This document shows, in pieces, positions 22,801 to 53,300 of a DNA stretch of 64,000 nucleotides (positions within the stretch are counted from its first letter, which is position 1; each line of letters starts with the position of its first letter). Both the position numbers and the translations under genes were made by a program. Source of the DNA: Protonemura montana (taxonomy: Eukaryota > Arthropoda > Insecta > Plecoptera > Nemouridae); the NCBI GenBank assembly GCA_947568835.1, contig OX387605.1:1736001-1800000 (forward strand), written 5' to 3'. The notes beneath the pieces are model-generated. The model was not told the DNA's origin. It did not search any database and saw only the letters and a program-made list of their open reading frames with translations.

Positions 22801-25800
22801 AAGGCTGGTTTTCATTGGCCGTCAGAACCCCGCGTGAGTTGTCGTTAGCGACCCCCGTAGCCTAGCAACCGATTAGCTAAGCCAAGCCCACACAGAACGT
22901 AGAACGAGCACCGTGGACGAAGAATCGCTGTAACCGTAGTTACTGTAAACGCAGCTGTAGAAGTTGAATAAAGAAACTTTTCTACCACCTACCGAGTTGC
23001 ATTCTTTATGTACCTACTGTTACCCAACTACTAATTGTAAGATTATAGTTATAAGATTAAATTGTCTAAATTGTAGCTGAAATCTGTATTTAAACTACAA
23101 ATGCTTGCAATGCGCTGGGCGTCTTATTAATATGAACACTATAAACGTCTGCAAATTTGATGCCCAAGCGGAGACTCGAACCCCGATCTCCACCTGTCTC
23201 ATCAAATACACTAAAATCGTCTCAAAAAGCCAGTGTCCAAGTTGCTAAATTGGTTAGAGCAACACCTGCGATAGGTGGAGATCGGGGTCCAAGTAGCTCA
23301 ATTGGTAAGAGCAAGACCCGCGACAGGTGGAGATCAGGGTCCAAGAAGCTCAATTGGTTAGAGCAACACCCGCGACAGGTGGAGATCGGGGTCCAAGTAG
23401 CTCAATTGGTTAGAGCAACACCCGCGACAGGTGGAAATCGGGGTCCAAGTAGCTCAATTGGTTAGAGCGACACCCGCGACAGGTGGAGATCGGGGTCCAA
23501 GTAGCTCAATTGGTTAGAGCAACACCCGTGACAGTTGGAGATCGGGGTCCAAGTAGCTCAATTGGTAAGAGCAAGACCCGCGACAGGTGGAGATCAGGGT
23601 CCAAGAAGCTCAATTGGTTAGAGCAACACCCGTGACAGGTGGAGATCAGGGTTTGAGTCCCCGTTTGGCCATCAATTTTTGAGACGTTTATAGTGTTCAT
23701 AATAATAAAAGTCTAGATTGTATTTATTAATTATTATATTTTTATAGTAGTAAATAGTAAATTGTAGCATAGAAATTCCAAAATCCAACTAGCAACTGCA
23801 GATTCACCCTGCACAAGATGACTTCGAACGTGAAAGATGGATTTAAATTTTTTTTTTAAATATTGCTCGTGAAAATAAACGTATCAAGTCCCATCCCACC
23901 CTTATCCCACCCGGCAAGAACTGAAATATGTCTGCCCAGATAGCTCAGTTGGTAGATGTCCCGGTTCATATCCCGGTACAGTAGCACAGACTTCTAGCTT
24001 CCCTTCCAAGGAAACATCTGATGCATTGCGGCACAACGTCACTAGAATCAGAGTGACTGTGAGCATTCACAGCCTCTTGGTTCTACCGTTGAGTGCAGGT
24101 TCTAGGTAGAGAAACAACGTCAATGTTACAGTCTCTGCGTGAAAGATGGCCGCCAAATGACTACCTTACCGACAAAAATGCAGAGTACCGGAATATCACG
24201 TTAAGTGGAGCCACTGTCGTATGAAATTTAATTTCGATATTTCTCGTAGGTTAACTCGCTTTTGAGATTTTTCATGCTCAAAAATTCTCCGTCAATGTTA
24301 ACCTCAACGATTGATAAACATGTAACGATATTAAAAAGCGAGTAACATACGAGAAATATCGAAATTAAATTTCATACGACAGTGGCTCCACTTAATGTGA
24401 TGTTCCGGTACTCTGCATTTTTGTTGGTAAGGTAGTCATTTGGCGGCCATATTTCACACAGAGACTGTAACATTGACGTTGTTTCTCTACCAAGAACCTG
24501 CACTCAACGGTTCTTCTCCTTGGAGATCCGTCATTCTCACCAGCAGCCGTCTACCGTTTGTTCCAGGGGCATGACCGTGACGTCGGGGGCTGTGACCGTA
24601 ACCAAGGACGCCGGGAACCTGATCGGCATCAGCATCGGGGGGGGCCCGCCCCACTGCCCCTGTCTGTACATCGTCCAGGTACCCTGCCCCACTGCCCCTG
24701 TCTGTACATCGTCCAGGTACCCTGCCCCACTGCCCCTATCTGTACATCGTCCAGGTACCCTGCCCCACTGCCCCTGTCTACACGTCCGGGTACCCTGCCC
24801 CACTGCCCCTGTCTGTACATCGTCCAGGTACCCTGCCCCACTGCCCCTGTCTACACATCATCCGGGTACCCTGCCCCACTGCCCCTGTCTGTACATCGTC
24901 CAGGTACCCTGCCCCACTGCCCCTGTCTGTACATCGTCCAGGTACCCTGCCCCACTGCCCCTGTCTACACATCGTCCAGGTACCCTGCAAAAATGGTACA
25001 TTTGTTATTAAATATGTCGTATAATTTCATGTAAATAATTACTTTATATAGTTTCTAGTTGTCATTTGAGTAAAATGCTTCTTGCAATCAAAACTGGTCC
25101 AGCTGTTTTTGGAATGCAGTATCACTGGTACAATTTTTTATTGCAAGAGGTAACCTATTATAAAAATATACCCCCGCATAGGCTGGGCTCTTGGTGTAAA
25201 TAGAAAGCTTACTGGTAGTGCACCCGCTGCGTAGGCAGCTGCCATGTGTTAGGTGACAGTTAAGAGTGGTGTGTAGATTTGAATTGATTTCAACAATTTC
25301 AATACCTAGAAAAGATCTTTTTGCCAGCCAGGTTAATTAATGGGACTCAGTGCAAAGGTCACTTCATGTCTGTGGACGTCCTTGTTGGTGGCCACGGTGT
25401 GGTTTCTTGAACGTGTGAGGTTGATAACGTTGTTCAAATAGAGGCATGGGGCAGTTAATATTCCTAGCTTTACTTTAACTTAACTTTCTTTACTTTAAAT
25501 TTAAACATTTTTCAATAGGCAGGGTCGATTAATGTTTTGTTACGTTGTCAGGGTGGATTAATGTGTTGTTACGTTGTCAGGGTGGATTAATGTGTTGCTA
25601 TGCCGACAGGTTTTCGACAACACGCCTGCCGCGAGGGAAGGAACTCTGCAAGGCGGTGACGAATTGGTTGCCGTGGACAACAAACCTGTCAAGGGCAAGA
25701 CCAAGGTCGAGGTCGCCAAAATGATACAGAGCTGTCAGGTGGGTTGCTAGGATACGGTCAGGTGGGTTGCTAGGATACGGTCAGGTGGGTTGCTAGGATA

Positions 25801-28800
25801 CGGTTAGGTGGGTTGCTAGGATACGGTCAGGTGGGTTGCTAGGATACGGTCAGGTGGGTTGCTAGGATACGGTCAGGTGGGTTGCTAGGATACGGTCAGG
25901 TGGGTTGCTAGGATACGGTCAGGTGGGTTGCTAGGATACGGTCAGGTGGGTTGCTAGGATACGGTCAGGTGGGTTGCTAGGATACGGTCAGGTGGGTTGC
26001 TAGGATACGGTCAGGTGGGTTGCTAGGATACGGTCAGGTGGGTTGCTAGGATACGGTCAGGTGGGTTGCTAGGATACGGTCAGGTGGGTTGCTAGGATAC
26101 GGTCAGGTGGGTTGCTAGGATACGGTCAGGTGGGTAGCTAGGATACGGTCAGGTGGGTTGCTAGGATACGGTCAGGTGGGTTGCTAGGATACGGTCAGGT
26201 GGGTTGCTAGGATACGGTCAGGTGGGTTGCTAGGATACGGTCAGGTGGGTTGCTAGGATACGGTCAGGTGGGTAGCTAGGATACGGTCAGGTGGGTTGCT
26301 AGGATACGGTCAGGTGGGTTCCAACCTATGATTGTTGGGATCCAGCTCTGAAGCAAGTATTGTTATGTGGGAAGTTGAGGGAAGATGTTATTTATCAGTG
26401 AAAGATACCAGTATTAGTTTGCAATCTTTCCGTTTGTTGTAAGCCCCGTTGTTAAAATCATAAAAGCTTTAAGTTGGGGATGTTGATGGCCTGGGTCGAC
26501 GTTTGATGGACCTTACAAAAGTCTATCAACTACCATTAAACACATCGAAATTCCATGATATCATGATAATAATAATAATACAAGCATGTTTTTATTGAAT
26601 GAATAGTTACTAATTCTTGACCACAGATCAAATTTAAATCAATCATATTAAAATTTCACCTCCTAGCTTGATATTTTGCTGTCCCATGCAACGTTCTTCC
26701 ACCACAAGGACTTAACATCTGATATCTTGTCTTCCAGGTGCTACCTTTTAAACACTTCATCTTTTCTAGTTTGTGGGACTTGACTTTTTCTGTTAACAGC
26801 TTCTGAAGTGTGTGAATGAGGAACAGTATTTTTTGTTCAGTTTCATTGCATCTGTGGTAGTTATTACAATCTTGTGATAAAATATTATCAGAGATTCAGA
26901 TTTCAGTTGTTGCTCAAGTTTCCGACAGAAACATCTTGAAGGTTGCGTCCTTCCAATGTCCAGTTTGCTTCCCTCGACAGGAGAAGGTCGTCATCGCTTA
27001 CAACAAACTCCATGCGGACCCCCAGCAGGGAAACTCCCTGGACATCGTGCTAAAGAAGGTGAGCATAGGATCCAGCCAGCTGATCTCAAATAACCTGGAT
27101 AGAGCATAGGATCCAGCCAGCTGATCTCAAATGACCTGGATAGAGCATAGGATCCAGTCAGCTGATCTCAAATGACCTAGATAGAGCATAGGATCCAGCC
27201 AGCTGATCTCAAATAACCTGGATAGAGCATAGGATCCAGCCAGCTGATCTCGAATAACCTGGATAGAACATAGGATCCAGCCAGCTGATCTCAAATGACC
27301 TGGATAGAGCATAGGATCCAGCCAGCTGATCTCAAATAACCTGGATAGAGAATAGGATCCAGCCAGCTGATCTCAAATAACCTGGATAGAGCATAGGATC
27401 CAGTCAGCTGATCTCAAATAACCTGGATAGAGCATAGGATCCAGCCAGCTGATCTCAAATGACCTGGATAGAGCATAGGATCCAGCCAGCTGATCTCAAA
27501 TAACCTGGATAGAGAATAGGATCCAGCCAGCTGATCTCAAATAACCTGGATAGAGTATAGGATCCAGTCAGCTGATCTCAAATAACCTGGATAGAGCATA
27601 GGATCCAGCCAGCTGATCTCAAATAACCTGGATAGAGAATAGGATCCAGCCAGCTGACCCAAATAACCTGGATAGAGCATAGGATCCAGCCAGCTGATCT
27701 CAAATAACCTGGATAGAGCATAGGATCCAGCCAGCTGATCTCAAATATCCTAGATAGAGCATAGGATCCAGCCAGCTGATCTCAAATAACCTGGATAGAA
27801 CATAGGATCCAGCCAGTCGATCTCAAATAACCTGGATAGAGCATAGGATCCAGCCAGCTGATCTCAAATAACCTGGATAGAGCATAGGATCCAGCCAGCT
27901 GATCTCAAATAACCTGGATAGAACATAGGATCCAGCCAGTCGATCTCAAATAACCTGGATAGAGCATAGGATCCAGCCAGCTGATCTCAAATAACCTGGA
28001 TAGAACATAGGATCCAGCCAGCTGATCTCAAATAACCTGGATAGAGCATAGGATCCAGCCAGCTGATCTCAAATAATCTGGATAGAGCATAGGATCTAGC
28101 ATCATTTTCGCGGTGATGACAGGTGAAGCACCGTCTGTGTGAAACGATGTCGGCCACGACTGCGGACGCGTTGGGACTCTCGCGCGCAATCCTTTGCAAT
28201 GACTCGCTCGTACGCAAGCTGGACGACCTGGCGCGCACTGAGGCGGTCTACCGTGGTCTGGCGGAACATGCACGCAACGTTCTCAAGGCATTCTTTGCAT
28301 TGCTACAAGTCTACAAGGGTGAGCGCACATTTCATGCACATTTCATGTCGGTCGCTAAAGTACGAAAGCCAAAGCACAAGCATAGCACACAAGGATCTTA
28401 AAACTTGGTTATCATATTGGACTGCACACAATTGACATAGCAATAAGCACAAGCATAGCACACAAGGATCTTAAAACTTGGTTATCATATTGGACTGCAC
28501 ACAATTGACATAGCAATAAGCACAAGCATAGCACACAAGGATCTTAAAACTTGGTTATCATATGGGACTGCACACAATTGACATAGCAATAAGCACAAGC
28601 ATAGCACACAAGGATCTTAAAACTTGGTTATCATATGGGACTGCACACAATTGATATAGCAATAAGCACAAGCATAGCACACAAGGAACTTAAAACTTGG
28701 TTTTCATATGAGACTGCACACAATTGATATAGCAATAAGCACAAGCAAAGCGCACAGTTAACAATGTCCTCAAATGGACTCTACTCATTACAAAGTTACA

Positions 28801-31800
28801 GCTGAGCCTTCTTTGTATAGTTTCAGATTTCAGGTGGCCATTGACCATTTTGTTACATGTCAATTGTTGGTTGACCGTACTGCTCTGTGTTGTTCAGCTT
28901 TTGGTGAGGCCTTTGCCACCATCGGCAACCGTGAGCCTTCAGCCCGGGCCTCTGAGGCATTCCGTCGTTTCGGAGAGATCCACCGGGCTCTGGAGAAGGA
29001 TGGGCTGGGCATGCTGCGGAAGGTGAAGCCGGTGAGTGTTGCATTGTTTGCTTTTTACATGATATTTACATGGTGTCAAAAATTTGGAAAAGTGTACGTA
29101 ACACCAATAAAGTTGAGTAACAGTTATGATTCTAATAGCATAATATCCAGTCAATCGACTTGTGAAGCATCACTTGTTTAGTGTTCATTGTACGGCTGCT
29201 TTATGTAGGTAATCATTTATCAAGTTCTAAACGCAGAAGACACAACCCCTTGATGGACATTAAAGTCACATTCTCAGTCTGTCAGGCTCCACTGAGCCAA
29301 TTAGTATTAAACCTTTTTTACTGATTCTCAATAATTCTTACGAACAAATCTGTTAATGCCAGGTGGTAAGATCTGGAAGATTATGTACGCTCTGGGCAGG
29401 CCAACGTGTTGAGTCTATCAAGGTGCTGGGATCCTGATGCCTAGCGTGGCGGTGTTTTATCTTGCCAGGTGCTGGGATCCTGATAATCTTGCCAGGTGCT
29501 GGGATCCTGATACCTAGCGTGGCAGTGTTTTATCTTGCCAGGTGCTGGGATCCTGATGCCTAGCGTGGCGGTGTTTTATCTTGCCAGGTGCTGGGATCCT
29601 GATACCTAGCGTGGCAGTGTTTTATCTTGCCAGGTGCTGGGATCCTGATGCCTAGCGTGGCGGTGTTTTATCTTGCCAGGTGCTGGGATCCTGATACCTA
29701 GCGTGGCGGTGTTTTATCTTGCCAGGTGCTGACAGACTTGGGCACGTACCTCAACAAGGCCATCCCGGACACCAAGTTGACCATCAACAAGTATGCGGAC
29801 ACCAAGTTCGAGTACCTGTCGTACTGTCTCAAGGTGAAGGAGATGGATGATGAAGAGGTTGGCTACAACGCGTTGCAGGAGCCGTTGTATCGCGTCGAGA
29901 CCGGTAACTACGAGTATCGGTGAGTGACGACATCTGAGCCATTGAGGGACCGAGCATGCACTTCACTTCTCTGCGTGGGCATCGTAGGACGGTAGAAGCA
30001 GGCAGCGAAACTGGTTGAACGAAAGAACATGTATATGACGTTTATAACGATATCAGGAACTCATTTCTTAGAGGTTATCAGTGTTTCTAACAATAAAATA
30101 TTCTGACCATTGCAAGCGTTTGCAATTTTAATCAGATTTCACGGCATAAAATGCATCCAACGTCAAATTGAAATTCGAGATTGACAGGTTGTGACGTGAT
30201 ATAGCATCACTAGAATCAGAGTGAGTGTGAGTATTCACAGCCTCTTGGTTCTACTCCTTGGAGATCCGTCGTTCTCATCAAATACACTAAAATCGTCCCA
30301 AAAAGCCAGTGTCCAAGTAGCTCAATTGGTTAGAGCAACACCCGCGACAGATCAGGATTAAAGGCACCTATTTGGGCATCAAGTTTTGAGAGGTTATTTG
30401 TGTTGCAAGCGTTGGTAATTTAACTAAGATTGAACAGCATTGTTTGTTGTCTCAGGTTGATTCTACGTTGTCGTGGCGATGCCCGAGCTAGGTTTGCTCG
30501 AGTGCGGGCCGACGTGCTTGTGAAGCTGGAGCTGCTTGACAACAAACACGTGCAGGACACGTGCCGTCAGTTGGCCCGCCTCGTGGCCGGACTCTCAGGT
30601 TACCATGGCGACGCTGCTAAACATCTGTCAGCGGCAGCCAAGTTGTTCCCCGTCGAGGTGGATCTTCAGCGCTCCGTCCTGCCCCAGTCCACGCAGGCAA
30701 GCAACTACTAGTTTGTATTTGTATTTTTGTTTTTGGCTCTACCTACTGAGCTATCCGGACACATTTGAGGAATAGTGACGGACCATTCTGTCCTGTGGCC
30801 AACGACGAACTCTTTCATACGAGTCACCTCGGCCTCTTCCCCCCTTCGAGGGAATCCCTTATCCCACCCCTGAGAAAGCTGTAATATGTGTGTCCAGATA
30901 GCTCAGTTGGTAGAGCACCCGACCGGCAATTGGGAGGTCCCGGGTTCGTATCCCCGGTTTGGTTGCACATTTTTCCAGTCTATTTTCCTTTCCAACAACT
31001 AGTTTGTCAGTAATTTGTATTTTATTAGCTGTTGAAGTACATTTTTCAAATGTGTATGCATTGTCATCAGATAATATTACTTGTAGCAATGTAAGAAAAC
31101 ATATATGTCTAGCCAAGCACGCCCTAACCTAATAATCTCTATCATGAAATTCCTCTAAATTATAAAACTCTTCTTGGAGAAGGAAGATCTTGAGGTTTGT
31201 CTTGAATGTATCCCTGCTTTTTATTTATTTTTTATTTGCAATTCATAAAAATAACATAGTGACCTGTGTGAATCAAGTGCTAGGGCATGTACATCAAATT
31301 AAAAACTTATCATCTCATTTCACATTCTTATACTCTTAAATACTGTAAAAACCTTGTTCAAACAAGTACATTCTTAGTAAGGTTTTGAAATGTGACTTAT
31401 TCCTGTTTGCATCCCTTATCACGAGGGGAAGTTTGTTGAAAATACCTCTGTCTGTTTCTTGAACGTTGTCTTCTTATGCTACAATAATCTTGGGTGAGAT
31501 TTCTTGCAACTCTTCTGCTGCCACCTGTCTCCTTGTTCAAAGTGAACGAAGGCACGGCAGTGGCATGATTTTAAGAGATTGGAACCTCTCTTTACAAGAT
31601 TCCCTGGGCCCTAAGCCCTACATTGAACTTATCATTTTTTTGAGCTTTGAAAGTTCGAGCCCCACTGCTGGAAGCAGCCCAGAATACTAGACCATATTGT
31701 ACGAGAGATTAAGCGCATGCAAAGTAAGATGCAATGCATCTCAGTTATTGTGGAAGGTTATTCATGATTTTCACTCCAACATTGAGCAGGTCATCGTCCA

Positions 31801-35309: not shown

Positions 35310-38300
35310 CTACCAAGGGTTGTCTACACTGGTCAGGGCATTGGCGGCATGTCGTCTGAAACAAACGCAAACGTCAGGCACACGGAACAAAGCGAATGCT
35401 GTAAACCAAACAAATTGATTTCTTTCCGAGTCAAGTTATTTACTAGCAGAGTATGAGCACACGCTCCAACTATCAGCGTGAGAGTCCGCATGGCAGACAC
35501 CAAGCCACGACAAGGACAACGCTTGCAAAACACAACACTATTTCATAGCTAACCTGAAAGCGCCGAAACGCTTTGCTTCGGAGACGTTCTTGGCGACCGA
35601 GGCCAAGCCCCCGCCAAGGGATGGGGCTGGGGGCGGAGCCGGGAGCGGCACGCGCTTGTACTTGTACCACCAGTACTCGAAGACCAGAGTCACGCAAGCC
35701 AACCCGATGCCGACAAAGATCACGATGAACACGCCGCCTAGAAAAACAGAAACCAGGAGATTGCCGACGATGGTGCAATGACAGCCAAGGAACTAACTGA
35801 TTTTATTATTAGGAACACTACTATCTCAACTATCTCAGCCATCGTGGTTCTACTCCTTGGAGATCCGTCTCTCTCACTTAATGCACTAAAATCCTTTAAA
35901 AAATGACGTGTCCAAGTAGCACAATTGGTTAGACCCGCTACAGATAGAGATCAGGATTAGGGCTTCAATTTGTAGTATTCCTAATAACACAATACTCGCG
36001 CATTGCAAGCGTTTGCAATTAAAATCAGATGGAACGTAAACTAACCAATGTTCTGTATGCTGATGCCATCTGATTGGTCGTCTTCCTTCTCGCAGTCCAG
36101 CTTGCGTTCCGGGTTTGCGTTCCACCAGCGTTCCTTGAGCTTCTCCAGCTTGCGCTTGTTTAGCAACTGCAGTATCCTAGGGACCGGGCAATGCAAGCCA
36201 ACGTCAGACCTGTCAACGTTCTGAGACCCTGATCACCTGCCGCTGCTTGCAACGGTTATGTTCAGTTACACGATATACACTTTGACAACGTGCTATGCGT
36301 AGTGATGGCCCGTAGTGAAATTCCCGTTTCCGGGAATGTTCCCCCAGGGAATATTCCCGAATAAGTAATAGATTCCCAAAACTAGGGTTTATTTTTATTT
36401 TTTCGTTATATGGTTATCAACTTAAGTTGGGACTAGTTATATTGAAGTTTAAACTGCTCCTCATCTGTTTGGCCATTTCTGAGTTAATGTGGCACCTAGA
36501 CTTTTGCTTTTGTTTGTTTTTCTGGAAAATGGGTCGTGTGACAGCCGACGTGTGGAGATCTTTTAAGGCTGTTGGGTGCAAAGCCACTTGGATGTAATGT
36601 AACCATATGTACAAGCACAACAATGTAACTAAGATGGCTAAACTCTTGCAGAAACTTTGCAGAAACTAAACCAAATTTCTCAGCCTTTGCATTTTTTAAG
36701 TTCTCTGAACACCCATTTTAACTCCAAAAAAGTTCTTGCAAATATTCCCTAAATGTTCCCAAAATTCCCAAAATTCCCTTCTTATTCCTGAAGAAATAAA
36801 TTCCGGGAATTTACCCATCACTAGCCATGCGTGACTGGTCTTACGCATTTAACAACGACGAGAAAACAAAAGACTCTTGTTACGATGTGTTCTTCTGTTT
36901 TGCTCTGAGTTGAAGAGATTTGCGGCCGTAGAAAAGGGTCTCACGTTTCAACGAGGTATGGCTCATCATCTTCAGGAGAATTATCTATGTTTTTTCTAGG
37001 GCCGCCAACCTCGTCAACACAGAGCAAAACCAAATTTTTCGAGCCAATTTTTCTCGAAAAATTGGCGTTTTTTCCATACACATAATTAGTTAGTTAAAAA
37101 ACGCCAATATGTTCGAGATCTTATTTCAGAAAATAAAAAATACATTAGTTTTTAAGTTATTGACTCTGATTATTTTGTATAGATGCATATAGGAAGCTTG
37201 AACTTGGTAATTGTTATAATTTTATGTAGTTCTTTTCTTATCGGAAAATTGTCAGGACTGCTCAAACCTCTGAAGAAGTAACTAGTATATGTTACGAAAC
37301 GTCGGTAAATTCAGTTGTTCTTTACTTAGCATTCAAAAACCCAGTTCAAATAGTTTTTGTTAAAACTAGTGCTAAGTTTACATCAAGTAGACATGAGTCT
37401 AAAACCCATCATTCAAAAGCCTCTTGGTTTTCCAGTTTCCCTCTTTCTTGAAATGCCACCTTGAACAAACGATTGTTGCTTTCCTTGGCAACCGTTGCCC
37501 TCGTACTCACGCGTTGTTGAACATATCTTTCAACGGCGAGCCTTGCTGCGTGACCACCGCGTACGGCTTGCGACTGAATTCCTCCCCAACCATCTGAAGG
37601 TCACACGACGTCATCACCTGGTAGCGTATGTCGGTCGCGTCACCTGCCAACCAGACTAGTTTACCAACGTTGCCATGACAAATACACAAAGTGCATGACC
37701 AGATCTAGGTTCAGAGATTTTAAACCTCTCATGAAAACGACATTCAAGTTGGTCCAGTCATTTGGGTGACCATCATACACATGACCAGTTCTGTTCGGGA
37801 GAGAGGTTGGAGGGATAGAAGTTAAGCAACACTGCGCTGGGTCAGGTATTGGATGGGTGACCATTATACACATGACCAGTTCTGTTCGGGAGAGAGGTTG
37901 GAGGGATGAAAGTTAAGCAACACTGCGCTGGGTCAGGTATTGGATGGGTGACCATCATACACATGACCAGTTCTGTTCAGGAGAGAGGTTGGAGGGATGA
38001 AAGTTAAGCAACACTGCGCTGGGTCAGGTATTGGATGGGTGACCATCATACACATGACCAGTTCTGTTCGGGAGAGAGGTTGGAGGGATGAAAGTTAAGC
38101 AACACAGCACTGGGTCAGGTATTGGATGGGTGACCATTATACACATGACCAGTTCTGTTTGGGAAAGAGGTTGGAATGATGAAAGTTAGTTCAGCAACTT
38201 CACTCGTCTTGCTTATCAATCTCTCGACAGCATGGATTTGTGGAGGAATCCTATTGTTCACGTTGTACCGTCCTTCGGAAGGTACGTTAAGCCGGTGGTC

Positions 38301-41300
38301 CCCTTGATCTACGACAGGGATAGGCTACGTGCCGGCACCGGGTTTCACCTCCTCCCTTCTAGGCTAGAGAATGTTCATCATCATCCACATATTCACCGAC
38401 GCCATTAGACCAGTGCCGCATGGCCAGATATCAAAACAGTGCGTCAATCCAGCTGTTTGGCCAGTAGCATGTGAACAAACAAAAATACAAACGCTAATCT
38501 CATCTAACAAAGCCCATTGATTTCGACGGCAAGCCCCGACGTTACCGATATAAGCGAAACCCTCGCTGGACGTGGCCGAGGCTCGGACTCTCTCCAAGGC
38601 CTCGTCCATCGTAGCAGGGAAACCGGCCTCCTTCATTGCCTGCCAGATCTTGGTGTACTTGTCACTGACTGGATAATCCCACACGGCAAGCTTGGCTCGT
38701 TCCACCTGAGACAAGCTGTCGTTGAGCGACATCTCCTTCCAGATCCTGGCGGCAGAACAAAGCCAAACTGTTGAGTGCGTTGATTGTATTAGCGGGAAAA
38801 CGGCAAGGTTAAATGATGGTTTTTAGTCTCATGTCTACTTGATTTATCCTTAGCACTAGTTTTAAGAAAAACTATTTCAACTGGGCTTTGAATGCTAAGT
38901 AAAGGACAACTAAATTTCCCGACGTTTCGCAACATATACTAGTTACTTCTTCAGAGGTTTGAGCAGTCCTGACATTTTTTCGATAACAAAAGAACCACAT
39001 AAAATTATAAAAATTACCTAGTTTTAGTTACCTAATTTAATTCATTTTAATTTTAGTAACCTAATTTTATATGGTTCTTTTGTTATCAGAAAATTGTCAG
39101 GACTGCTCTAACCCTTGAAGAAGTAACAGTTACAAGTTACGAAACGTTGGGAAATTTAGTAGCCCTTTACTTAGCATTCAAAACCCATTTTAAATAGTTT
39201 TTCTTGAGGCAAGATTAAAGTTTGTGCTGAGAAAATGAGCCAGATGGAGGGTGATGCCCGAAGGCACTTGCGGCTGTCCTTTTTAACGAAGCTCTCACTT
39301 AGCAAATAGTAAATGACATTGTGACATTAACACTGTATCATCAATATAAGTATTAGTACAACCGTTGAGTGTAGGTTCTAGGTAGAGTTTCAACGTCAAT
39401 GTTACAGTCTCTGCGTGAAAGATGGCCGCCAAACGACTACCTTACCGACAAAAATGAAGAGTACCGGAACATCACGTTAAGTGGAGCAACTGTCGAAAGA
39501 ATTTTAATTTCGATATTTCTTGTAGGTTAACTTGCTTTTGAGACTTTTCATGCTCAAAAAATCTCCATCAATGTTTACCTCAACGATTGATAAACACGTA
39601 ACGATATTTAAAAGCGAGTAACCTTCAATAAATATCGAAATTAAATTATGTTCCGGTACTCTGCATTTTTGTCGGTAAGGAAGTCATTTTTCAAGCAGAG
39701 ACTGCAACATTGACGTTGTTACTCTACCTAGAACCTGCACACTCAACGGTTTAACATTAACGTTCTGTCTCTACCTAGAACCTGCACACTCAACGGTTTA
39801 ACATAAACGTTCTGTCTCTACCTAGAACCTGCACACTCAACGGTTTAACATTAACGTTCTGTCTCTACTTCAAACCTGCACACTCAACAGTTTAACATTA
39901 ACGTTCTTTCTCTACCTAGAACCTACACACTCAACGGTTTAACATTAACGTTCTGTCTCTACCTAGAACCTACACACTCAACGGTTTAACATTAACGTTC
40001 TGTCTCTACCTAGAACCTGCACATTCAACGGTTTAACATAAACGTTCTGTCTCTACCTAGAACCTGCACACTCAACGGTTTAACATTAACGTTCTGTCTC
40101 TACTTCAAACCTGCACACTCAACGGTTTAACATTAACGTTCTGTCTCTACCTAGAACCTGCACACTCAACGGTTTAACATTAACGTTCTGTCTCTACCTA
40201 GAACCTGCACACTATACGGTTTAAAATTAACGTTCTGTCTCTACCTAGAACCTGCACACTCAACGGTTTAACATTAACGTTCTGTCTCTACCTAGAACCT
40301 GCACACTCAACGGTTTAACATTAACGTTCTGTCTCTACCTAGAACCTACACACTCAACGGTTTAACATTAACGTTCTATCTCTACCTAGAACCTGCACAC
40401 TCAACGGTTTAACATTAACGTTCTGTCTCTACCTAGAACCTACACACTCAACGGTTTAACATTAACGTTCTGTCTCTACCTAGAACCTGCACATTCAACG
40501 GTTTAACATAAACGTTCTGTCTCTACCTAGAACCTGCACACTCAACGGTTTAACATTAACGTTCTGTCTCTACTTCAAACCTGCACACTCAACGGTTTAA
40601 CATTAACGTTCTGTCTCTACCTAGAACCTGCACACTCAACGGTTTAACATTAACGTTCTGTCTCTACCTAGAACCTGCACACTATACGGTTTAAAATTAA
40701 CGTTCTGTCTCTACCTAGAACCTGCACACTCAACGGTTTAACATTAACGTTCTGTCTCTACCTAGAACCTGCACACTCAACGGTTTAACATTAACGTTCT
40801 GTCTCTACCTAGAACCTACACACTCAACGGTTTAACATTAACGTTCTATCTCTACCTAGAACCTGCACACTCAACGGTTTAACATTAACGTTCTGTCTCT
40901 ACCTAGAACCTGCACACTCAACGGTTTAGCATTAACGTTCTGTCTCTACCTAGAACCTGCACACTATACGGTTTAAAATTAACGTTCTGTCTCTACCTAG
41001 AACTTGCACACTCAACGGTTTAACATTAACGCTCTGTCTCTACCTAGAACCTGCACACTCAACGGTTTAACATTAACGTTCTGTCTCTACCTAGAACCTG
41101 CACACTCAACGGTTTAACATTAACGCTCTGTCTCTACCTAGAACCTGCACACTCAACGATTTAACATTAACGTTCTGTCTCTACCTAGAACCTACACACT
41201 CAACGGTTTAACATTAACGTTCTATCTCTACCTAGAACCTGCACACTCAACGGTAATACTGTTGTTAGAAGTTAAAAGTGCACAGACTCATAAAACCGAG

Positions 41301-44300
41301 TTTCAATGTCTGCCATGCGCTGGAAGTATGTCATGGCCGCCGAGCCGTTCAGCGGGGCGTAGAGGATCTTGTATTGTTTGCTGAGATCGTCGAGTGACTC
41401 AACGGGAGATTCCAGTCTCGAGACTGTGAGGAATGCGGCCAAGTTGGCCGTGTACGACGCTATGATGATGAAGCCAAACAGCCACCAGGTGGCGGCTACC
41501 AGTCGTCCAGAGAGGTTCTTGGGGGCCTCTCCTCCGCCCTGTTGGTCAATACCAAGGGCTTGGGGTTATTATTTAAATATTTGGAATTTGTTAGCAATGT
41601 TACAATTGCAGGGTTTTTGGTTTTTTTGGTGATTATACGCGGGAGCTGAAACCAGCAAGCAATGGATGGAAAGGGGAGCTGGACTGGAACCGAACCAGGA
41701 TACGAACCCAGGACATTCCAATAGGGAAATCTCTTTAAATTTGAAACTATTTTTTTGTTTTTTTGTGAGAAAATAATGAACATGTATTTTTTTATTTTCT
41801 TCTAATTCCAATTTTGAATAAAATATCAGTGTTTAAAATTTTTGCGTTTGAATCTCGTACGAAAACGAGGGTTGCCATTTTTTATGACATGAAGTGAAAT
41901 CTGACGTCAGTATGACGTCAAAATACGTCAAGAAACAGAAGCGAACGCAAAGGAGACCCAAAATGACGTCAGAACACTATTTCTGACGTCACAGCCCGTT
42001 TTCATCCCGCCACGAGAATTCATATTTTGGCCATTCTTAAAACAAATATAAATAGAAAAGTTATGATCGGATTGTAAAAAGAAAAAATATGTCAGATTTT
42101 ATTTTAAACACGTATTTGAACACAATGATAATAATTAAATAATAATCTTAAGAAGATTTCCCTATTGCTGGTCAAAAGTTCTACCAACTGAGCCATCTGG
42201 GCACACAGATTCCAGTTTTGCAGGGTGGGATACGGGATCCTCTCATGAGGTAAGAGACTGAAATCTAACTAAATCTTGAAATCCAACGACAGGAATCAGT
42301 TGCAATGCATTTGACAGGCCTGTCAATGGGCAAAACTTGGATACCTAACAAAATATTTAACCACCTCCCGATCTACATCAAAGAATCCTCTCTACGCAGC
42401 ATCTTCGACTCCTACCTACGTAACTTTCTCATCCAAAACCCTTTCAACAACTTCGAGGAATAACTGACCTCTACACGACACCATCTCCCCCTGGCCCATC
42501 AACAATGACGACTTAGAACAACCACCTAACTATTGATGCTAGTTCCTAATCATTACTTTTAGTAAACCATTATTATTGACATTATACATAAGTTATTGTC
42601 AAATTAGAACCTAAGATTATTATATTTTACAACCTATACTATACCATTAAGCCACTATCCTTACCATTACTACCACTATTATATTTATAATTATATTATC
42701 TTATTATATTATTAACCTTATATAAAAGGCTTAAATCTGCGATGTTCAACTTTTTAGTTTGTATCTGGCGACCAGCTGGGGTAACATTTTTCTGTACATG
42801 TTGATTTAAATTGCGAAATTTGGTTAAAAACGTGTGCAATTGGGTTATAATTGTTCAAAATTAAAATCTCTATCCTATTGTGACACTTTGAGGGTGATTT
42901 GAAAGCGTTTTTTTGGTGAAATATTGATAATTGTGTTTGAAATTTCCTGCCTAGGAAAATTGGAGCCATGTCTCACAGTTCGATTTTTATTTCATTCAAA
43001 ACTTGCCTTTAAATGACCTGCAGCAGTTTGGTAATACTGTTTATGCATGCCTATGAAAGTTATTGAAGAAATTGAGCACAAACGCTGTTATTTACGTTCG
43101 TTTTAAGTGAAATAGAAATAATTTTGCAAAAAGAGTGACATATGCATTCATTTGTTTGGTTTTTTGACCACTGCAGGGTGAACGAATTCTTAAACTTATC
43201 TTTGCGGCAGTGCATTCAGGATATTAAAACGTCAAACGGGATTAAAACGTCAAATACTTTTAAGAAACCGGTCAAACATTGCTGGGAATAATTTTAAATT
43301 GTACATGACTTCAGAGCACGACCCAACGCGACATTTATACGGTGATTTGATGGGATTTTCGTTATGAATTTTATTTAAAACTGGCTGGCAAGGGAAGGTT
43401 TTGACAGTTCTCAAACAATGTCAAACAACTTAATTACCGAAAAAACTTACATTTTGTCAATTTTAAATGCATATCCGTTCTTTAAACACGTTTTTAGTAA
43501 GATCTGGTGGAGATGTAAAAGGTATTTCACAAGTTTCACTCTCTAAAAAATATTTCAAGATATTATGCACGCAAAATCTTTTGACAGCCAACTTCGTTTG
43601 TTTTCGAAATTGTCATCGTGGTCACTTTGGAATTCACAGAGTTTCCACAATGCAGTGACCCCAAGTGAAATAAGCGGCAAATTTCAAATAAAATAAATGG
43701 GGGTACTTTTGGTTGTGGTCCCATTAGAGGCTTTACATTAAAACCAAAATGCACAATCCCTCAAAATCTTAAGGTGCCGTTAGGCATCGGGTTCTGCTAG
43801 TAGTATATACAACTCTACCGTTATTACTATTTTATCACCTTTAGTTACTTTTTCATGTTATAAACGGAACAATATTACCATGTTACCTACATATAAAAAT
43901 CTTTACTAGAATAGGCCGATACAACCACAATGTATTTGTCAGCAGCCAATAAACAAATATACAAATATATACAATCACATACCTGTGGGGTCAGTGAGGT
44001 CATGCAGAACCAGAGGCACTCCTTGAGGTTGAACTCTCGCTTCTCCTCGTCGAGCTTGTACTTGTCGCGATTGTTCTGGTACGAGTACGGACTCCATCGG
44101 TCGAACACCCACATGAGGAAGCTGCGGAGCAAAGCCAGGTGCTGGAGATGCTCAAAGTTTTACCCAACCTGAACCAGCTGTTCATTGACACTAATTTCTT
44201 TTATTTTGTTTAGATGCATTTAGGAAGCTTGAACTTGGTAATTGTTATAATTTTATGTGGTTCTTTTGTTATTGGAAAATTGTCAGGACTGCTCTTACCC

Positions 44301-47300
44301 TTGATAAAGTATCAGGTACAAGTTACGAAACGTCGGGAAATTTAGTTGTTCTTTACTTAGCATTCAAAACCAAGTTGAAATAGTTTTTGTTAAAACTAGT
44401 GCTAAGGATAAATCAAGTAGACATGAGTCTAAAAACCATCATAAAGTTCAAACCAGTTGGCAGCGTTGTGGTTTTAAGTATGGAAACTGGCGTCAGCATT
44501 GGTGCTGGTATAATTGAGACATATTAATGTGCTATCAATAAAAAACAATGGAGTGATTCTGAGAAGACAGTTAAGCAAAATATTTACTTCCCGTGTACAC
44601 GTCTTTAGAGCCAGAAAAGTTTGAAACCTCGGTGTACTATAAAAGCACTTGCTACTTTATGAAATCTGTATTTAAATTTCAAACGCTTGCAATGCGCGGG
44701 GTATTTTATTATTCACAAACGGGACCAAACGGGGACTCGAACCCCGATCTCCACCTCTAGGAAATCTTGCAGCAGTGCACTTGGAAGTGGGATATTTTCG
44801 CGCGGAGTTCAGATCCATTACAGGGATTCGGGTTATTAAAAATGACCAATTCACGCAAATGAATTGTTGAACGACAAAAACAACCAGTCAATTACATAAT
44901 TGTAAACAAAACCATAGAAAACTATTATATACTTATTATTAAATTGTTTTTTTCTAAAGTCTAGGGGAATCGATGATTCCCTTGATTCTATGGACTGCAT
45001 GCCTCTGCACAAAGGCCATGTCCAAGTAGCTCAATTGGTTGGAGCAACGCCCACGACAGGTGGTGATCGGGGTCCAAGTAGCTCAATTGGTTGGACCAAC
45101 GCCCACGACAGGTGGAGATCGGGGTCCAAATAGCTCAATTGGTTGGAGCAACGCCCACAACAGGTGGAGATTGGGGTCCAAGTAGCTCAATTGGTTAGAG
45201 CAACACCCGCGACGGGTGGAGATCGGGGTCCAAGTAGCTCAATTGGTTGGAGCAAAACCTGCGACAGTTGGAGATTCGGGTCCAAGTAGCTCAATTGGTT
45301 AGAGCAATGCCAGTGACAGGTGGATATCGGGGTCAAAGTAGCTCAATTGGTTAGAGCAACACCCGCAACAGGTGGAGGTAGGGGTGGCCAACAGGTGGAG
45401 GGTACTCTAGCCCCAAACATTGTAGCCAGCTCACCTGGTAAAGAAGTACGCCACGAGGATACAGACCCACACGTCGTTCTCGAGCACGGTGAGGAACTTG
45501 AAGAGCGACGTCGGGGTCTTGGGCTTCTTCATGAGGATCGTAATGCCGACCAGGTCGTAGTAGGGCACCGTGAAGTCGACCACGTTCTCTCGTTCAGCCA
45601 TCACGGACATGGCACCAAGGGCAATGTCAGCACGCTTTGCAAGGATTCAAGATCTGTGTAAGCTTTATCTGTGGCAGTCTTTGCCTCATAAGGATGGAAT
45701 ATCTGTGCAAGCTTTATCAGTGTTAGTCTTTGCCTTATAAGGATGGAATATCTGTGCAAGCTTTATCTGTGTTAGTCTTTGCCTCATAAGGATGGAATAT
45801 CTGTGTAAGCTTTATCTGTGCTAGTCTTTGCCTCATAAGGATGGAATATCTGTGCAAGCTTTATCTGTGTTAGTCTTTGCCTCATAAGGATGGAATATCT
45901 GTGTAAGCTTTATCTGTGCTAGTCTTTGCCTCATAAGGATGGAATATCTGTGTCATCATATTGGTTAGTGAAATTGAACGTGGTTGTTATTGGAAAACCT
46001 GTTATTGGCGGTATGCAACAGAAATGCGCTTGCCTTCTCGATAAGCTCTTTGACGGCTCCGTTCCACTGTCCGTTGTCGTCCATGTTCCCGTATTGCTTG
46101 TCCGGTGCCTCGTAGATCTCGTACTCAAAACCTGTCAGGTTGCGTATCTCTTCGAGCAGGTCCACGCAGTAACCTTGGTAACGTGGAGTTGCACCTGCCT
46201 TGGCATCGTCCAAGAAGACAAACGGCCGCTGCTGCAAACGTGGTCGACGTTAGGGTTGCCTCAGCAAAGGGAGGCTTCTGGTCAGAGTGGATGGTAGGTC
46301 AGAGTGGATGGAAGGTCAGAGTGGATGGAAGGTCAGAGTGGATGGAAGGTTAGAGTGGATGGTAGGTCAGAGTGGATGGAAGGTCAGAGTGGATGGAAGG
46401 TCAGAGTGGATGGAAGGTTAGAGTGGATGGTAGGTCAGAGTGGATGGAAGGTCAGAGTGGATGGAAGGTCAGAGTGGATGGAAGGTCAGAGTGAATGGAA
46501 GGTCAGAGTGAATGGAGGTCAGAGTGGATGGAAGGTCAGAGTGGATGGAAGGTCAGAGTGGATGGAAGGTCAGAGTGGATGGAAGGTCAGAGTGGATGGA
46601 AGGTCAGAGTAGATGGAAGGTCAGAGTGGATGGAAGGTCAGAGTGAATGGAGGTCAGAGTGGATGGAAGGTCAGAGTGGATGGAAGGTCAGAGTGGATGG
46701 AAGGTCAGAGTGGATGGAAGGTCAGAGTGGAAGGAAGGTCAGAGTGGATGGATATAACTACTTATGATTTGAAAGGGCTCTGATGCAGATATTGTTGTTT
46801 TAGGCCTAGGAATATTTTGACTCCAAATAATTAAGGTGATGTTTTTGGGGATTTCTTGCGCTATTAAAAAAAATGAGGGAAATGAGCCGGTGTTTGGTAA
46901 ATATAGAAATATTTCACAGAATAGTTAGCTTGGAAAGAAGCTTGCAAAAGATTAGCAATAGAAAACTGGGAAAGAGAGTTTAGGGAGAATAATATTGTGG
47001 ACTTGAAAGAAATTATCGGCACCACATACCGGATGGATTCACTGTGACTGGAAACCAACGATCAAAGAAACTATCAGCTATAAAGACAAGAGGTCATCAA
47101 AGATTTAATAAAACAAATTACTTGATTTTCAAGAAAGGTTCAGAACTTGTAAACTTTTTGTTAAAAGAAATAAAGAACGTCCTTGTTGAAGGATGAACTT
47201 TAACAAGCAATAAAAAGGTCAAACAGGGCGTAAAATTGACCAGAAACTTCGAAAAACATTTGAAAAACGTGAATAAATCTTGAATGCGAGGACTTTCAAA

Positions 47301-50300
47301 CCTGCCGTGTTTATCAATCGTTGAGGTAAACATTGATGGAGATTTTTTAAGCATGAAAAGTCTCAAAAGCGAGTTAACCTACGAGAAATATCGAAATAAA
47401 ATTTCATACGACAGTGGCTCCACTTAACGTGATGTTCCGATACTCTGCATTTTTGTCGGTAAGGCAGTCATTTGGCGGCCATCTTTCACGGAGAGACTGT
47501 AACATTGACGTTGTTTCTCTACCTAGAACCTGCACTCAACGGTGGTGGGTACTCACGATTACGGTAACGACCCTGTACACGATGGTGACGGAGAAGTTGG
47601 CCAAGGTGTCATGTTTCTTTACACGGATCGGAGAGTCGAGTCCCGCACGCCACGAACCAACGTCCTCGACGCGAGCTGCCCGTCCCTCAGACATCTCTAC
47701 ACGTTCAACACGAACGGAGAACTCCGGGAAGCTGTGACCGTTCGTTGACACCACCAGGGGGGCGTAGCTTGGAGATACAGTCACCTAGCAATTCAGTCAC
47801 AACAAGCTTTAGTCTAAAACCCGTTCATAGTTCAATTATTTTCCTAGATTTTTAGATGAAATCTGTATTTAAATTGCAAACGCTTGCAATGCTCGGGGTA
47901 TTTTATTATTATCAACACTATAACCGTCTCAAAAATTGATGCCTGAACGGGGACTCGAATCCCGATCTCCACCTGTCGCGGGTGTTGCTCTAACCAATTG
48001 AGCTATTTGGACACTGGATTTTAGTGTATTTGATGAGAATAATGGAGTTCCAAGGAGTCCCCGTTTGGACATCAATTTTTGAGACCGTTATAGCGTTGTG
48101 TGTAGGTTCTAGGTAGAGGCGTCAATGTCAGAACGTCAATGTTACAGTCTCTGCGTGAAAGATGGCCGCCAAATGACTACCTTACCGACAAACATGCAGA
48201 GTACCGGAACGTCACGTTAAGTGGAGCCACTGTCGTATGCAATTTAATTTCGATATTTCTCGTAGGTTAACTCACTTTTGAGACTTTTCAAGCTTAAAAA
48301 ATCTCCATCAATGTTTACCTCAACGATTGATAAACACGTAACGATATTAAAAAGCGAGTAACCTACGAGAAATATCGAAATTAAATTTCATACGACAGTG
48401 GCTCCACTTAACGTGATGTTCCGGTACTCTGCATTTTTGTCGGTAAGGTAGTCATTTGGCGGCCATCTTTCACGCAGAGACTGTAACATTGACGTTGTTT
48501 CTCCACCTAGAACCTGCACTCAACGGTTATAGTGTTTATAATAATAAAATGTTCCAAGATTTGTTCCAAGAAGTTTGCCTTGTAGGGGAGAGTCACCGTT
48601 GCAAGAAAACATCGCATTTTTCACCACTCAGTATTTAAAAAAACTCATCCAAACTACACTTGTTAACCTTTTTAGGGTTACATAATTTTTTTCAAGTTTT
48701 TATGATTATTTTTGAGTCATAATTATTAAATTGTAGAGGTTTGTTAAAACGGACGGCCACAACCGCCATCAAGTGGCAAGCACCGTCGCCACAAGTTGCT
48801 GGTCTCGTTTGCTCGGCAGAGAGCGTAAAATTATAATGGTTTCTAGACCCATGTCTACTTGATGTAAACTTAGCACTAGTTTTAACAAAAACTGTTTCAA
48901 CTGGGTTTTGAATGCTAAGTGAAGAACAACTGAATATCCCGACGTTTCGTAACTTGTACCTGCTACTTCTTTAGAGGTTTGAGCAGTCCTGACAAATTTC
49001 CAATTTATATGTGGTTCTTTTGTTATCGGAAAATTGTCAGGACTGCTCAAACCTCTGAAGTAACTAGTTTATGTTACGAAACGTCGGGAAATTTTAGTAG
49101 CCCTTTACTTAGCATTCAAAACCCAGTTCAAATAGTTTTTCTTTGAGCGTAAAATTATCGCAGTGACTCTGACTTCATAACCTCAACGCTACAAAGTTTC
49201 CGAGAGGCTCGGCACGTTGTTTCTATGTTCGCACCTCGCGCAGTGCCTTGCGGAGGTTGAGATCGACGCGGATCAACTCGCTGCCCTCGGTGTACTTGGC
49301 GCACGTCGCAAACTGCATCTCCTTCGGCCACGCCCCACTCTCCATCATCGACCTGCGACATTCAAACGAGGTCCGGATTAAGAGGAAATCTGTATTTAAA
49401 TTGCAAGCGCTTGCAATGCGTGGGGTATTTTATTATTAACAACACTAGAACACTTGTACCTGTTACTTCTTCAAGGGTTAGAGCAGTCCTGACAATAATT
49501 GAATTATTAAAAAAATTAAATTACATTAAAAATAATAATAAAATTAATAAATAATAAAATTTAAATAATAATATAACAAAAAAGTTACAATTCTGTTCCT
49601 ACGCTACACTACTTCTTGTGTGTCTGATCCTATGCATGATGGAACCTTGCCCCATGTCAGATTCAGGCCATCTCCGTGAAAATCGCTGGTCGTGCAGGAA
49701 ATACTTTGTCCTCGTGACTCACGCGACTGCAAGCATTGATCGAAGGTAGAGATCGAAGTAGAACGTTGCCGTCACCTCCGGCTGCCCGGTGAGACCGTGG
49801 GCCGAACGCAGGTCTACCAACCGATGACGAGACACCTCGTCTGGTTCGGGGCGGAGAAGCAATACGCTTGCGTTCGCACAATTGCATTTCACTTGTCCTG
49901 CAGATTCCTGGAGCAACAAGATTCATTAATCTGTCAGTAGCACCAAGAAGAAACCCAGACCTCGATTGGTGCTAGAAGGGAGGAGGGGAAACCCGGTGCC
50001 GGCACGTAGCCTACTCCTGTCGAAGACCAAGGGGACCACCGGCTTAACGTCCCTTCCGAAGGACTGTACAACTCGAACAACAGGATTCCTCCACAAATCC
50101 ATGCTGTCGAGAGGTTGATAAGCAAGGCGAGTGAAGTTGCTGTACTAACTTTCATCCCACCAACCTCTCTCCCGAACAGAACTGGTCATGTGTATGATGG
50201 TCACCCATCCAATACCTGACCCAGCGCAGTGTTGCTTAAATTTCATCTCTTCAACCTCTCTCCCGAATAGAACTGGTCATGTGTATGATGGTCACTCATC

Positions 50301-53300
50301 CAATACCTGACTCAGCGCAGTGTTGCTTAACTTTCATCCCTCCAAAATCTCCCGAATAGAACTGGTCATGTGTATGATGGTCACCCATCCAATACCTGAC
50401 CCAGAGCAGTGTTGCTTTACTTTCATCCCTCCAACCTCTCTCCCAAACAGAACTGGTCATGTGTATGATGGTAACCCATCCAATACCTGACTCAGCACAG
50501 TGTTGCTTAACTTTCATCCCTCCAACCTCTCTCCCAAACAGAACTGGTCATGTGTATGATGGTCACCCATCCAATACCTGACCCAGAGCAGTGTTGCTTA
50601 ACTTTCATCCCTCCAACCTCTCTCCCAAACAGAACTGGTCATGTGTATGATGGTAACCCATCCAATACCTGACTCAGCACAGTGTTGCTTAACTTTCATC
50701 CCTCCAACCTCTCTCCCAAACAGAACTGGTAATGTGTATGATGGTAACCCATCCAATACCTGACTCAGCACAGTGTTGCTTAACTTTCATCCCTCCAACC
50801 TCTCTCCCGAACAGAACTGGTCATGTGTATGATGGTCACCCATCCAATACCTGACCCAGCGCAATGTTGCTTAACTTTCATCCCTCCAACCTCTCTCCCG
50901 AACAGAACCGGTCATGTGTATGATGGTCACCAATCCAATACCTGACTCAGTGCAGTGTTGCTTAACTTTCATCCCTCCAACCTCTCTCCCGAACAGAACT
51001 GGTCATGTGTATGATGGTCACCAATCCAATACCTGACTCAGTGCAGTGTTGCTTAACTTTCATCCCTCCAACCTCTCTCCCGAACAGAACTGGTCATGTG
51101 TATGATGGTCACCAATCCAATACCTGACTCAGTGCAGTGTTGCTTAACTTTCATCCCTCCAACCTCTCTCCCAAACAGAACTGGTAATGTGTATGATGGT
51201 CACCCATCTAATACCTGACCCAGCGCAGTGTTGCTTAACTTTCATCCCTCCAACCTCTCTCCCGAACAGAACTGGTCATGTGTATGATGGTCACCAATCC
51301 AATACCTGACCCAGCGCAGTGTTGCTTAACTTTCATCCCTCCAACCTCTCTCCCGAACAGAACTGGTCATGTGTATGATGGTCACCAATCAATACCTGAC
51401 TCAGTGCAGTGTTGCTTAACTTTCATCCCTCCAACCTCTTTCCCGAACAGAACTGGTCATGTGTATGATGGTCACCAATCCAATACCTGACTCAGTGCAG
51501 TGTTGCTTAACTTTCATCCCTCCAACCTCTCTCCCGAACAGAACTGGTCATGTGTATGATGGTCACCAATCCAATACCTGACTCAGTGCAGTGTTGCTTA
51601 ACTTTCATCCCTCCAACCTCTCTCCCGAACAGAACTGGTCATGTGTATGATGGTCACCAATCCAATACCTGACCCAGTGCAGTGTTGCTTAACTTTCATC
51701 CCTCCAACCTCTCTCCCGAACAGAACTGGTCATGTGTATGATGATCACCCATCCAATACCTGACCCAGCGCAGTGTTGCTTAACTTTCATCCCTCCAACC
51801 TCTCTCCCAAACAGAACTGGTCATGTGTATGATGGTCACCCATTCAATACCTGACCCAGCGCAGTGTTGCTTAACTTTCATCCCTCCAACCTCTCTCCCA
51901 AACAGAACTGGTCATGTGTATGATGGTCACCCATCCAATACCTGACCCAGCGCAGTGTTGCTTAACTTTCATCCCTCCAACCTCTCTCCCAAACAGAACT
52001 GGTCATGTGTATGATGGTCACCCATCCAATACCTGACCCAGCGCAGTGTTATTGCTATGGTGAGGACCAGTGTTTCCAACACGTCAAACCCTGACCCAGG
52101 TTGATGATGCGTAACTCACCAATGTAATGGCGTGCCATGCATATTTGCGTCCGAACAGCTGAGTGGCTGCCGCAGCGTCTAGTACCGCGTTGATCGTGGA
52201 CATCCGGCCGATAATGAAGAAGTTGAACAGGTCGAGGTCGCGCAGACGTGAAAGCTGCTTCCGAACGTTGGTTGCCGACACCTCGACGATAACGTGGCGT
52301 GTCGGGATGTTTTGTAGCAGCGACTTGTACTTGTGTTCCATCACTGCCCAACGCAAGCGCTTTGTTGACAATCATATGATCCCGTGATTTACCGGCATTT
52401 GTTGCAAGTTATTTATTTCTTTATTTGCTTACTTATAGCTTTGGTATTACGATAATTACCTGAGGCTAAAAGAATTACAATAGTGTTTCTAAAATTTAAA
52501 ATAGAAATTCGTAGAATTTTTTGGTTAGTTTGTAAATTTACAGTGGTATTTCATATTTTTTGGAAAGGTAGTCAGCGCATTCCAGTCTAATTGATCGAGC
52601 AAAAAAGGCTTGATGGCCCATGTCGCTATTGTACCCAGGGAGGTACAAGAAGGCTTGATGGCCCATGTTGCTATTGTACCTAGGGAGGTACAAGAAGGCT
52701 TGATGGCCCATGTTGCTATTGTACCTAGAGAGGCACAAGAAGGCTTGTTGGCCCATGTCGCTATTGTACCCAGGGAGGTACATGAAGGCTTGATGGCCCA
52801 TGTCGCTATTGTACCTAGGGAGGTACAAGGAGGCTTGATGGCCCATGTCGCTATTGTACCTAGGGAGGTACAAGAAGACTTGATAGCCCATTTTGCTATT
52901 GTACCTAGGGAGGTACAACAAGGCTTGATGGCCCATGTCGCTATTGTACCCAGGGAGGTACAAGAAGGCTTGATGGCCCATGTCGCTATTGTACCTAGGG
53001 AGGTACAAGAAGGCTTGATAGCCCATGTCGCTATTGTACCCAGGGAGGTACAAGGAGGCTTGATGGCCCATGTCGCTATTGTACCCAGGGAGGTACAAGA
53101 AGGCTTGATGGCCCATGTCGCTATTGTACCTAGGGAGGTACAACAAGGCTTGATGGCCCATGTCGCTATAGTACCCAGGGAGGTACAAGGAGGCTTGATG
53201 GCCCATGTCGCTATTGTACCCAGGGAGGTACAAGAAGGCTTGATGGCCCATGTCGCTATTGTACCTAGGGAGGTACAAGAAGGCTTGATGGCCCATGTCG

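Follow-up and report, generated by a model that had tools for sequence, protein, structure and literature searches.

Tandem arrays at exon-intron boundaries of a PICK1 gene in Protonemura montana

The PICK1 gene and the arrays at its splice junctions

The stretch of DNA considered here (the window, 64,000 nucleotides) comes from the plecopteran Protonemura montana (GenBank assembly GCA_947568835.1, contig OX387605.1, positions 1,736,001 to 1,800,000 of the forward strand), and the positions given for it are counted from its first letter. On the plus strand, from 24570 to 30711, it contains a PICK1 gene, coding for a protein with a PDZ and a BAR domain, for which seven coding exons were found on the basis of their open frame and of matches in PDB (24570-24678, 25610-25738, 26981-27058, 28123-28318, 28898-29031, 29726-29919 and 30456-30711). 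Joining these exons yields an open frame of 364 residues. The PDZ part of the predicted protein resembles solved PICK1 PDZ chains (4.6e-35 in PDB), and the BAR part resembles arfaptin-2 (2.4e-11 in PDB). Six tandem arrays were identified in the introns of this gene by Tandem Repeats Finder (TRF), and four of them include or reach a splice junction. Two donors and two acceptors are affected in this way, one of the acceptors being a borderline case, and splice signals are multiplied up to 26-fold in one gene.

The location of four PICK1 boundaries in or at tandem arrays had been put forward in the initial annotation of this DNA, and it was confirmed by TRF together with direct reading. The donor of the exon ending at 24678 (exon 2) lies inside a 38-bp array (24648..24988, plus strand, 9.1 copies) that contains nine donor copies and whose first unit holds 31 coding bases, instead of the 28 originally counted. 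The donor of the exon ending at 25738 (exon 3) is included in a 23-bp array (25734..26320, plus strand) with five exon bases inside its unit and 26 donors, the first estimate having been approximately 25 copies; the 23-bp units are nearly identical to each other. On the acceptor side, a 46-bp array (29421..29731, plus strand) reaches six bases into the exon starting at 29726 and contains eight acceptor copies. The fourth case is a 29-bp array (25520..25609, plus strand) that extends as far as the acceptor of the exon 25610-25738. The AG described every 29 bp before this exon is indeed present, as CAG at 25520, 25549, 25578 and 25607, with the acceptor in register after a degenerate last copy. 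Because of this degenerate copy, and because TRF scores the array at only 2.7 copies (25520-25597) and stops 12 bp before the junction, this is the weakest of the four and has to be regarded as borderline.

Judging from their sequence, the boundary arrays appear to have arisen when a segment with the boundary inside it was duplicated in tandem. Genome-wide pattern searches of the junction units covered those of 38, 23 and 46 bp. In the 258-Mb assembly, a 33-base pattern of the 23-bp array has 19 exact matches, all of them inside the array, whereas a 23-base pattern of the 46-bp unit (up to two mismatches) and a 28-base pattern of the 38-bp unit (up to three mismatches) have six and eight matches, respectively, all at PICK1. 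The finding of these three units at one locus only, together with the exon bases they contain, supports the duplication reading. Furthermore, since the 31 exon bases of the 38-bp array encode part of a stretch that aligns with mammalian PICK1, the array would derive from the boundary and not the reverse. Dispersal of the Introner type, with many copies carrying their own splice sites, was not found for the three junction units searched (38, 23 and 46 bp), whose matches are all at this locus; a dispersed 41-bp unit present in another PICK1 intron does not contain the PICK1 junction. Tandem arrays are prone to mis-assembly, and wrong copy numbers or positions could be suspected for this reason. 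Here, however, variant units occur at scattered positions within the arrays, and clean coding exons flank them, which makes an assembly artefact extremely unlikely.

The initial annotation also suggested that these arrays were seeded by duplication of AGGT segments, in which case they would be what remains of introns gained when exon segments containing AGGT were duplicated in tandem, as in the Rogers model (described in PMC4974935). In favor of this idea, AGGT is present at three of the four array-bearing junctions. Against it, in no PICK1 intron do the donor and the acceptor share a unit. The 38- and 23-bp arrays are found only on the donor side and end 621 and 660 bp short of the acceptor, while the 46- and 29-bp arrays are found only on the acceptor side, at 389 and 841 bp from the donor. 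With no intron carrying one array at both ends, intron gain of this kind is highly unlikely. The AGG core pointed out in every unit deserves little weight, as units of this length would often hold AGG by chance.

Consequences of the multiplied sites for the reading frame

The multiplied sites are far from equivalent with regard to the encoded protein. Including the outermost copy in each count, a full-length protein is obtained from one of the 26 exon-3 donors, from one of the eight acceptors of the exon starting at 29726 and from three of the nine exon-2 donors. Since the inner sites mostly break the protein, splicing presumably proceeds from the outermost donor or acceptor copy, as far as the reading frame indicates. 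At exon 2, donor copies 4 and 7 would retain the frame, lengthening the protein by 37 or 75 residues. These frame-keeping copies would be compatible with selection of the multiplied sites for a role in splicing, as a means of tuning PICK1 isoforms, and an intronic minisatellite, CeRep25B, has been linked to alternative splicing in C. elegans (PMC4039745). Nevertheless, a full-length protein is not obtained from 25 of the 26 exon-3 donors or from seven of the eight acceptors of the exon at 29726, and the near-identity of the 23-bp units is that expected of young arrays. We regard such a selected device as very improbable.

Placement of the arrays relative to chance

The two remaining arrays in PICK1 introns do not include a junction. 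The first (27061..28100, plus strand) is a dispersed 41-bp satellite that occupies 1040 of the 1064 bp of the intron starting at 27059. It begins at intron base 3, right after the donor, and the junction is outside its unit. This unit has 10,940 exact 33-base matches in the assembly (5256 forward and 5684 reverse; none for the reversed control) and, because it is a dispersed satellite, the array is not splice-seeded and not the product of its donor. The second, a 73-bp array (28372..28756, plus strand) whose unit recurs in another locus (L036), lies 53 bp from the donor and touches no junction.

The neighboring gene on the minus strand (35554..56211) was used as a comparison gene. It encodes an ionotropic receptor in about 16 exons (Lig_chan-Glu_bd, 1.5e-31; Lig_chan, 1.7e-23), presumably Ir25a-like, with three exon edges set by hand, namely 55179, 41288 and that of an exon located at approximately 49725-49906. 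A second array of the 41-bp satellite (55192..55821, minus strand) is located 12 bp from the acceptor of its exon starting at 55179, in the opposite orientation relative to the gene as compared with PICK1; the satellite is therefore present in introns of both window genes, and it is also found in locus L031. Another exon ends at 55020, and 3 bp past its donor there begins a 39-bp array (54852..55016, minus strand) whose unit does not clearly contain the junction. Finally, a 49-bp array (45641..45953, minus strand) is separated by 6 bp from the acceptor of an exon that starts at 45634. This array was considered as boundary-derived and dropped, its unit being a dispersed satellite, with 3774 assembly matches at up to three mismatches (2260 + 1514; none for the reversed control).

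Under a null model that places founding duplications randomly over introns and their junctions, the chance of spanning a junction would be 10-29% for each PICK1 unit. For at least four of the six PICK1 arrays to do so, random placement gives p=0.009, and for at least three of six, leaving out the 29-bp case, p=0.066; these values, like the others obtained for the same arrays, are optimistic because PICK1 was picked post hoc as striking. When the intron arrays of both window genes are considered, the probability of at least five of 16 is 0.054 with the dispersed 49-bp array counted in, and that of at least four of 16 is 0.16, a fairer count precisely because the 49-bp array is dispersed. Chance placement had been called implausible in the initial annotation. 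The arrangement is indeed unusual locally, although not astronomically so, and the gene was chosen after the fact.

Boundary arrays elsewhere in the genome

Twenty-two further stretches of the assembly, 20 around PDZ-coding exons and two flanking the window, served as a comparison sample of 220 kb. This sample contains 16 arrays (3.6% of bases), and none of the 16 overlaps a called exon edge, the nearest one lying 40 bp away. The exon caller covered 28 of 28 PDZ matches, all of which were also in its training set. At the level of the whole assembly, a motif pattern of three GGTGAGT words separated by gaps of 12-42 bp was compared with a control in which the motif was reversed. GGTGAGT triples gave 140 matches versus 278 for the control and, from contig C1 to C5:11.17 Mb, three arrays versus seven among the matches listed.

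Eight GGTGAGT arrays are present among the matches listed (100 of 140), and the upstream flanks were read for seven of them. Four of the seven start at the donor of an apparent exon (L038, L039, L042 and L043), with exon bases inside the unit in L039, L042 and L043. In L037 there is an apparent exon on the opposite strand whose acceptor adjoins the array, and in L040 and L041 an apparent exon was not seen in the array flanks. The apparent exon of L042 has a near-threshold JHBP match (2.3e-6, 27.4 bits versus a cut-off of 29.2), and that of L039 a weak family match (0.01). The boundary-array structure thus apparently recurs in the genome. It is important to remark that 15 of the 34 GGTGAGT words in 284 kb, mostly gene-rich, are called donors, and for this reason four of seven arrays at donors is about the base rate for random founding segments.

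Two other arrays were recorded along the way. One of them, at C3:26928084-26929718, has a 44-bp unit and contains many copies of GGTAAGT; PDZ-coding exons are found nearby, and it is possibly a boundary array; the other, at C1:1371141-1372574, has a 46-bp unit that contains AGGTGGGT.

Position along contigs and probable origin of the arrays

The contig to which the window belongs is 27.2 Mb long, and the window lies 1.74-1.80 Mb from one of its ends. Arrays make up 14,775 of the 64,000 bases of the window, versus the 3.6% of the 220 kb sampled elsewhere. Over 20 loci, not fully independent because several are neighbors, array content becomes lower the farther a locus is from the contig end (rho -0.61, p=0.005). 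Among the matches listed, 14 of the 21 placed motif arrays are in the outer 10% of a contig, on one side or the other, where 4.2 were expected (p=4.5e-6); the placed arrays are 21 of the 26 listed, two on C4, two on C13 and that at C14:582467 having been dropped. Exact matches of the 49-bp unit behave similarly, with 11 of 25 groups in the outer 10% and five expected, and on contig C1 the one-mismatch matches listed for this unit are confined to about the first 1.0 Mb or the last 2.0 Mb. Minisatellites concentrate toward chromosome ends in vertebrate genomes. The likeness with the present case is the concentration of arrays near ends, which here are the ends of contigs.

Random births of minisatellites near a contig end, together with tolerance of extra splice sites, probably provide the best explanation for the PICK1 boundary arrays. 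According to this proposal, a founding tandem duplication of 23-46 bp would happen to include an existing exon-intron boundary, and the duplicated unit would then expand by slippage or unequal exchange. Founding positions would be distributed nearly at random over introns and their edges, and the arrays born inside exons would be removed by purifying selection. Those spanning a boundary would persist, since the outermost copy (the first donor or the last acceptor) would remain usable by the spliceosome, with the frame kept. The accumulation of many arrays in PICK1 would be due to the fact that this contig end is minisatellite-rich, a feature that recombination near chromosome ends may drive.

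A different view is that some process favors tandem duplication at splice junctions, for instance as a result of breaks that accompany transcription or splicing at exon edges, and that PICK1 is a hot case. Several observations fit this view and weigh against random births with tolerance. Locally the excess reaches nominal significance: a junction is spanned by every one of the four PICK1 arrays for which dispersal was not seen (p=3.8e-4), and for at least four of the seven arrays taken as not dispersed in both genes the probability is 0.004. In the same direction, an edge-distance test on the 16 arrays of both genes gives p=0.001. Two of the three motif totals are also favorable to a junction bias, as GGTAAGT triples (172 matches versus 64) and a loose AGGTRNGT pattern (3986 versus 2269) are above their controls. 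Also weighing against random births is that the exon edges outside the window come from a small custom exon caller trained partly on the same loci, that no family match was obtained for the apparent exons of L037, L038 and L043 (three of five), and that the apparent exons beside GGTGAGT arrays otherwise rest on open frames and splice signals. Selection against arrays of this type could, moreover, mask a bias.

On the other hand, GGTGAGT triples are not above their control, four of 16 over both genes has p=0.16, no array in the 220 kb overlaps a called exon edge, and PICK1 was chosen post hoc. As for the two favorable totals, 36 of the 100 GGTAAGT matches listed belong to one 44-bp array, with few and long arrays among the matches listed, and the matches listed for the loose pattern belong either to an (AGGT)n microsatellite or to one 46-bp array, for which reason this pattern was set aside. 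Taken together, the motif arrays show no consistent excess over controls in what is a coarse test. A process favoring slippage at splice signals, the second reading offered in the initial annotation, is not demonstrated by these counts: the GGTGAGT total and the zero of 16 are contrary to it, while the GGTAAGT and loose totals go the other way. A process directed to splice junctions is therefore an unlikely origin for the PICK1 arrays. Equally doubtful is the broader claim that tandem duplication is mutationally favored at active splice junctions in this lineage, with the excess mostly hidden by purifying selection and PICK1 displaying the raw bias.

Other features of the window and of the assembly

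Several observations were made in passing. The receptor gene has an apparent GC-AG intron at 46034 on the minus strand (GAGAAG|GCAAGC). A long inverted-repeat element, recognized by eye, has similar copies at about 22130-22590 and 24070-24510, and a 47-bp array at 39706-41254 resembles its end sequence. Arrays with a 52-bp unit occur at four places in the window and look tRNA-derived, one of them ending in a match to a tRNA model (23599-23671). The 91-bp arrays found at six places in the window were taken by us to be 5S-like; no Rfam match to 5S was obtained in 20000-58700.

Outside the window, six successive matches to one myosin-head segment at C1:6015301-6018763 are arranged as in the mutually exclusive exons of muscle myosin. 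At C4:5760925-5762262 there is a COX1 copy that scores equal to the mitochondrial contig, with a partial copy nearby, and it is likely nuclear mitochondrial DNA. The mitochondrial contig itself (C34, 15,885 bp) has the order I-Q-M-nd2-W-C-Y-cox1-L2-cox2-K-D-atp6-cox3-G-nd3-A-R-N-S-E-F, which, with trnL2 between cox1 and cox2, we take to be the pancrustacean ground plan. Amphioxus was rejected as the source of the DNA on account of this order, which points to an arthropod. Two of the 24 tRNAs predicted on this contig look spurious.

Comparison with known systems

Different systems described in the literature share part of the features of the PICK1 arrays. The Rogers tandem genomic duplication model is illustrated in PMC4974935 by a potato RdRp case, and a multi-copy 24-bp AGGT case in fission yeasts is cited there. 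Both this model and PICK1 involve tandem copies of AGGT-containing segments at gene boundaries; in the model, a new intron takes its two ends from the copies, whereas in PICK1 each array is located at one end only. CeRep25B of C. elegans is a dispersed 24-bp intronic minisatellite found near alternative exons and tied to splicing by statistics, and the accessible part of its report (PMC4039745) does not describe units containing a junction, unlike those of PICK1. Minisatellite repeats are also present in an intron of an earthworm metallothionein gene and are not described as junction-spanning in the accessible part of that work (PMC12783039). An arthropod case of boundary-spanning arrays was not found among the papers listed from the open-licence literature, which is weak evidence of absence.

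The closest parallel is that of amphioxus, to which the initial annotation had correctly pointed and which has been published under the name of mirages in Adh3 and in the globin genes BflGb6 and BflGb9 (PMC3087553). Mirages and the PICK1 arrays are alike in consisting of a minisatellite-like tandem duplication across an exon-intron boundary, in affecting both 5' and 3' boundaries, and in having many units that carry AG/GT signals along with exon bases. Unit sizes are 23-46 bp in PICK1, 10-72 bp in amphioxus Adh3 and about 150-160 bp in the globins (PMC3087553). The same source contains an intron-gain proposal for mirages that resembles the one made for PICK1. In addition to the arthropod host, PICK1 differs from amphioxus in having four boundaries involved in one gene, and it is known from one assembled haplotype.

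The PICK1 arrays share the structural features of mirages that can be tested, namely a spanned boundary, the inclusion of exon bases and the involvement of donors as well as acceptors. If they were born at random and tolerated, mirages would be expected in any minisatellite-rich genome, with no special mechanism needed; if duplication were favored at junctions, the mirages of amphioxus and of this arthropod would be products of one splicing-linked process. The genome of P. montana allows the frequency of boundary-spanning arrays to be compared with chance, and PICK1 constitutes a natural test of splice choice among up to 26 near-identical donors. In summary, the PICK1 arrays are a real structure of a known kind in another phylum than amphioxus, and they extend the boundary-spanning minisatellites described there to an arthropod.

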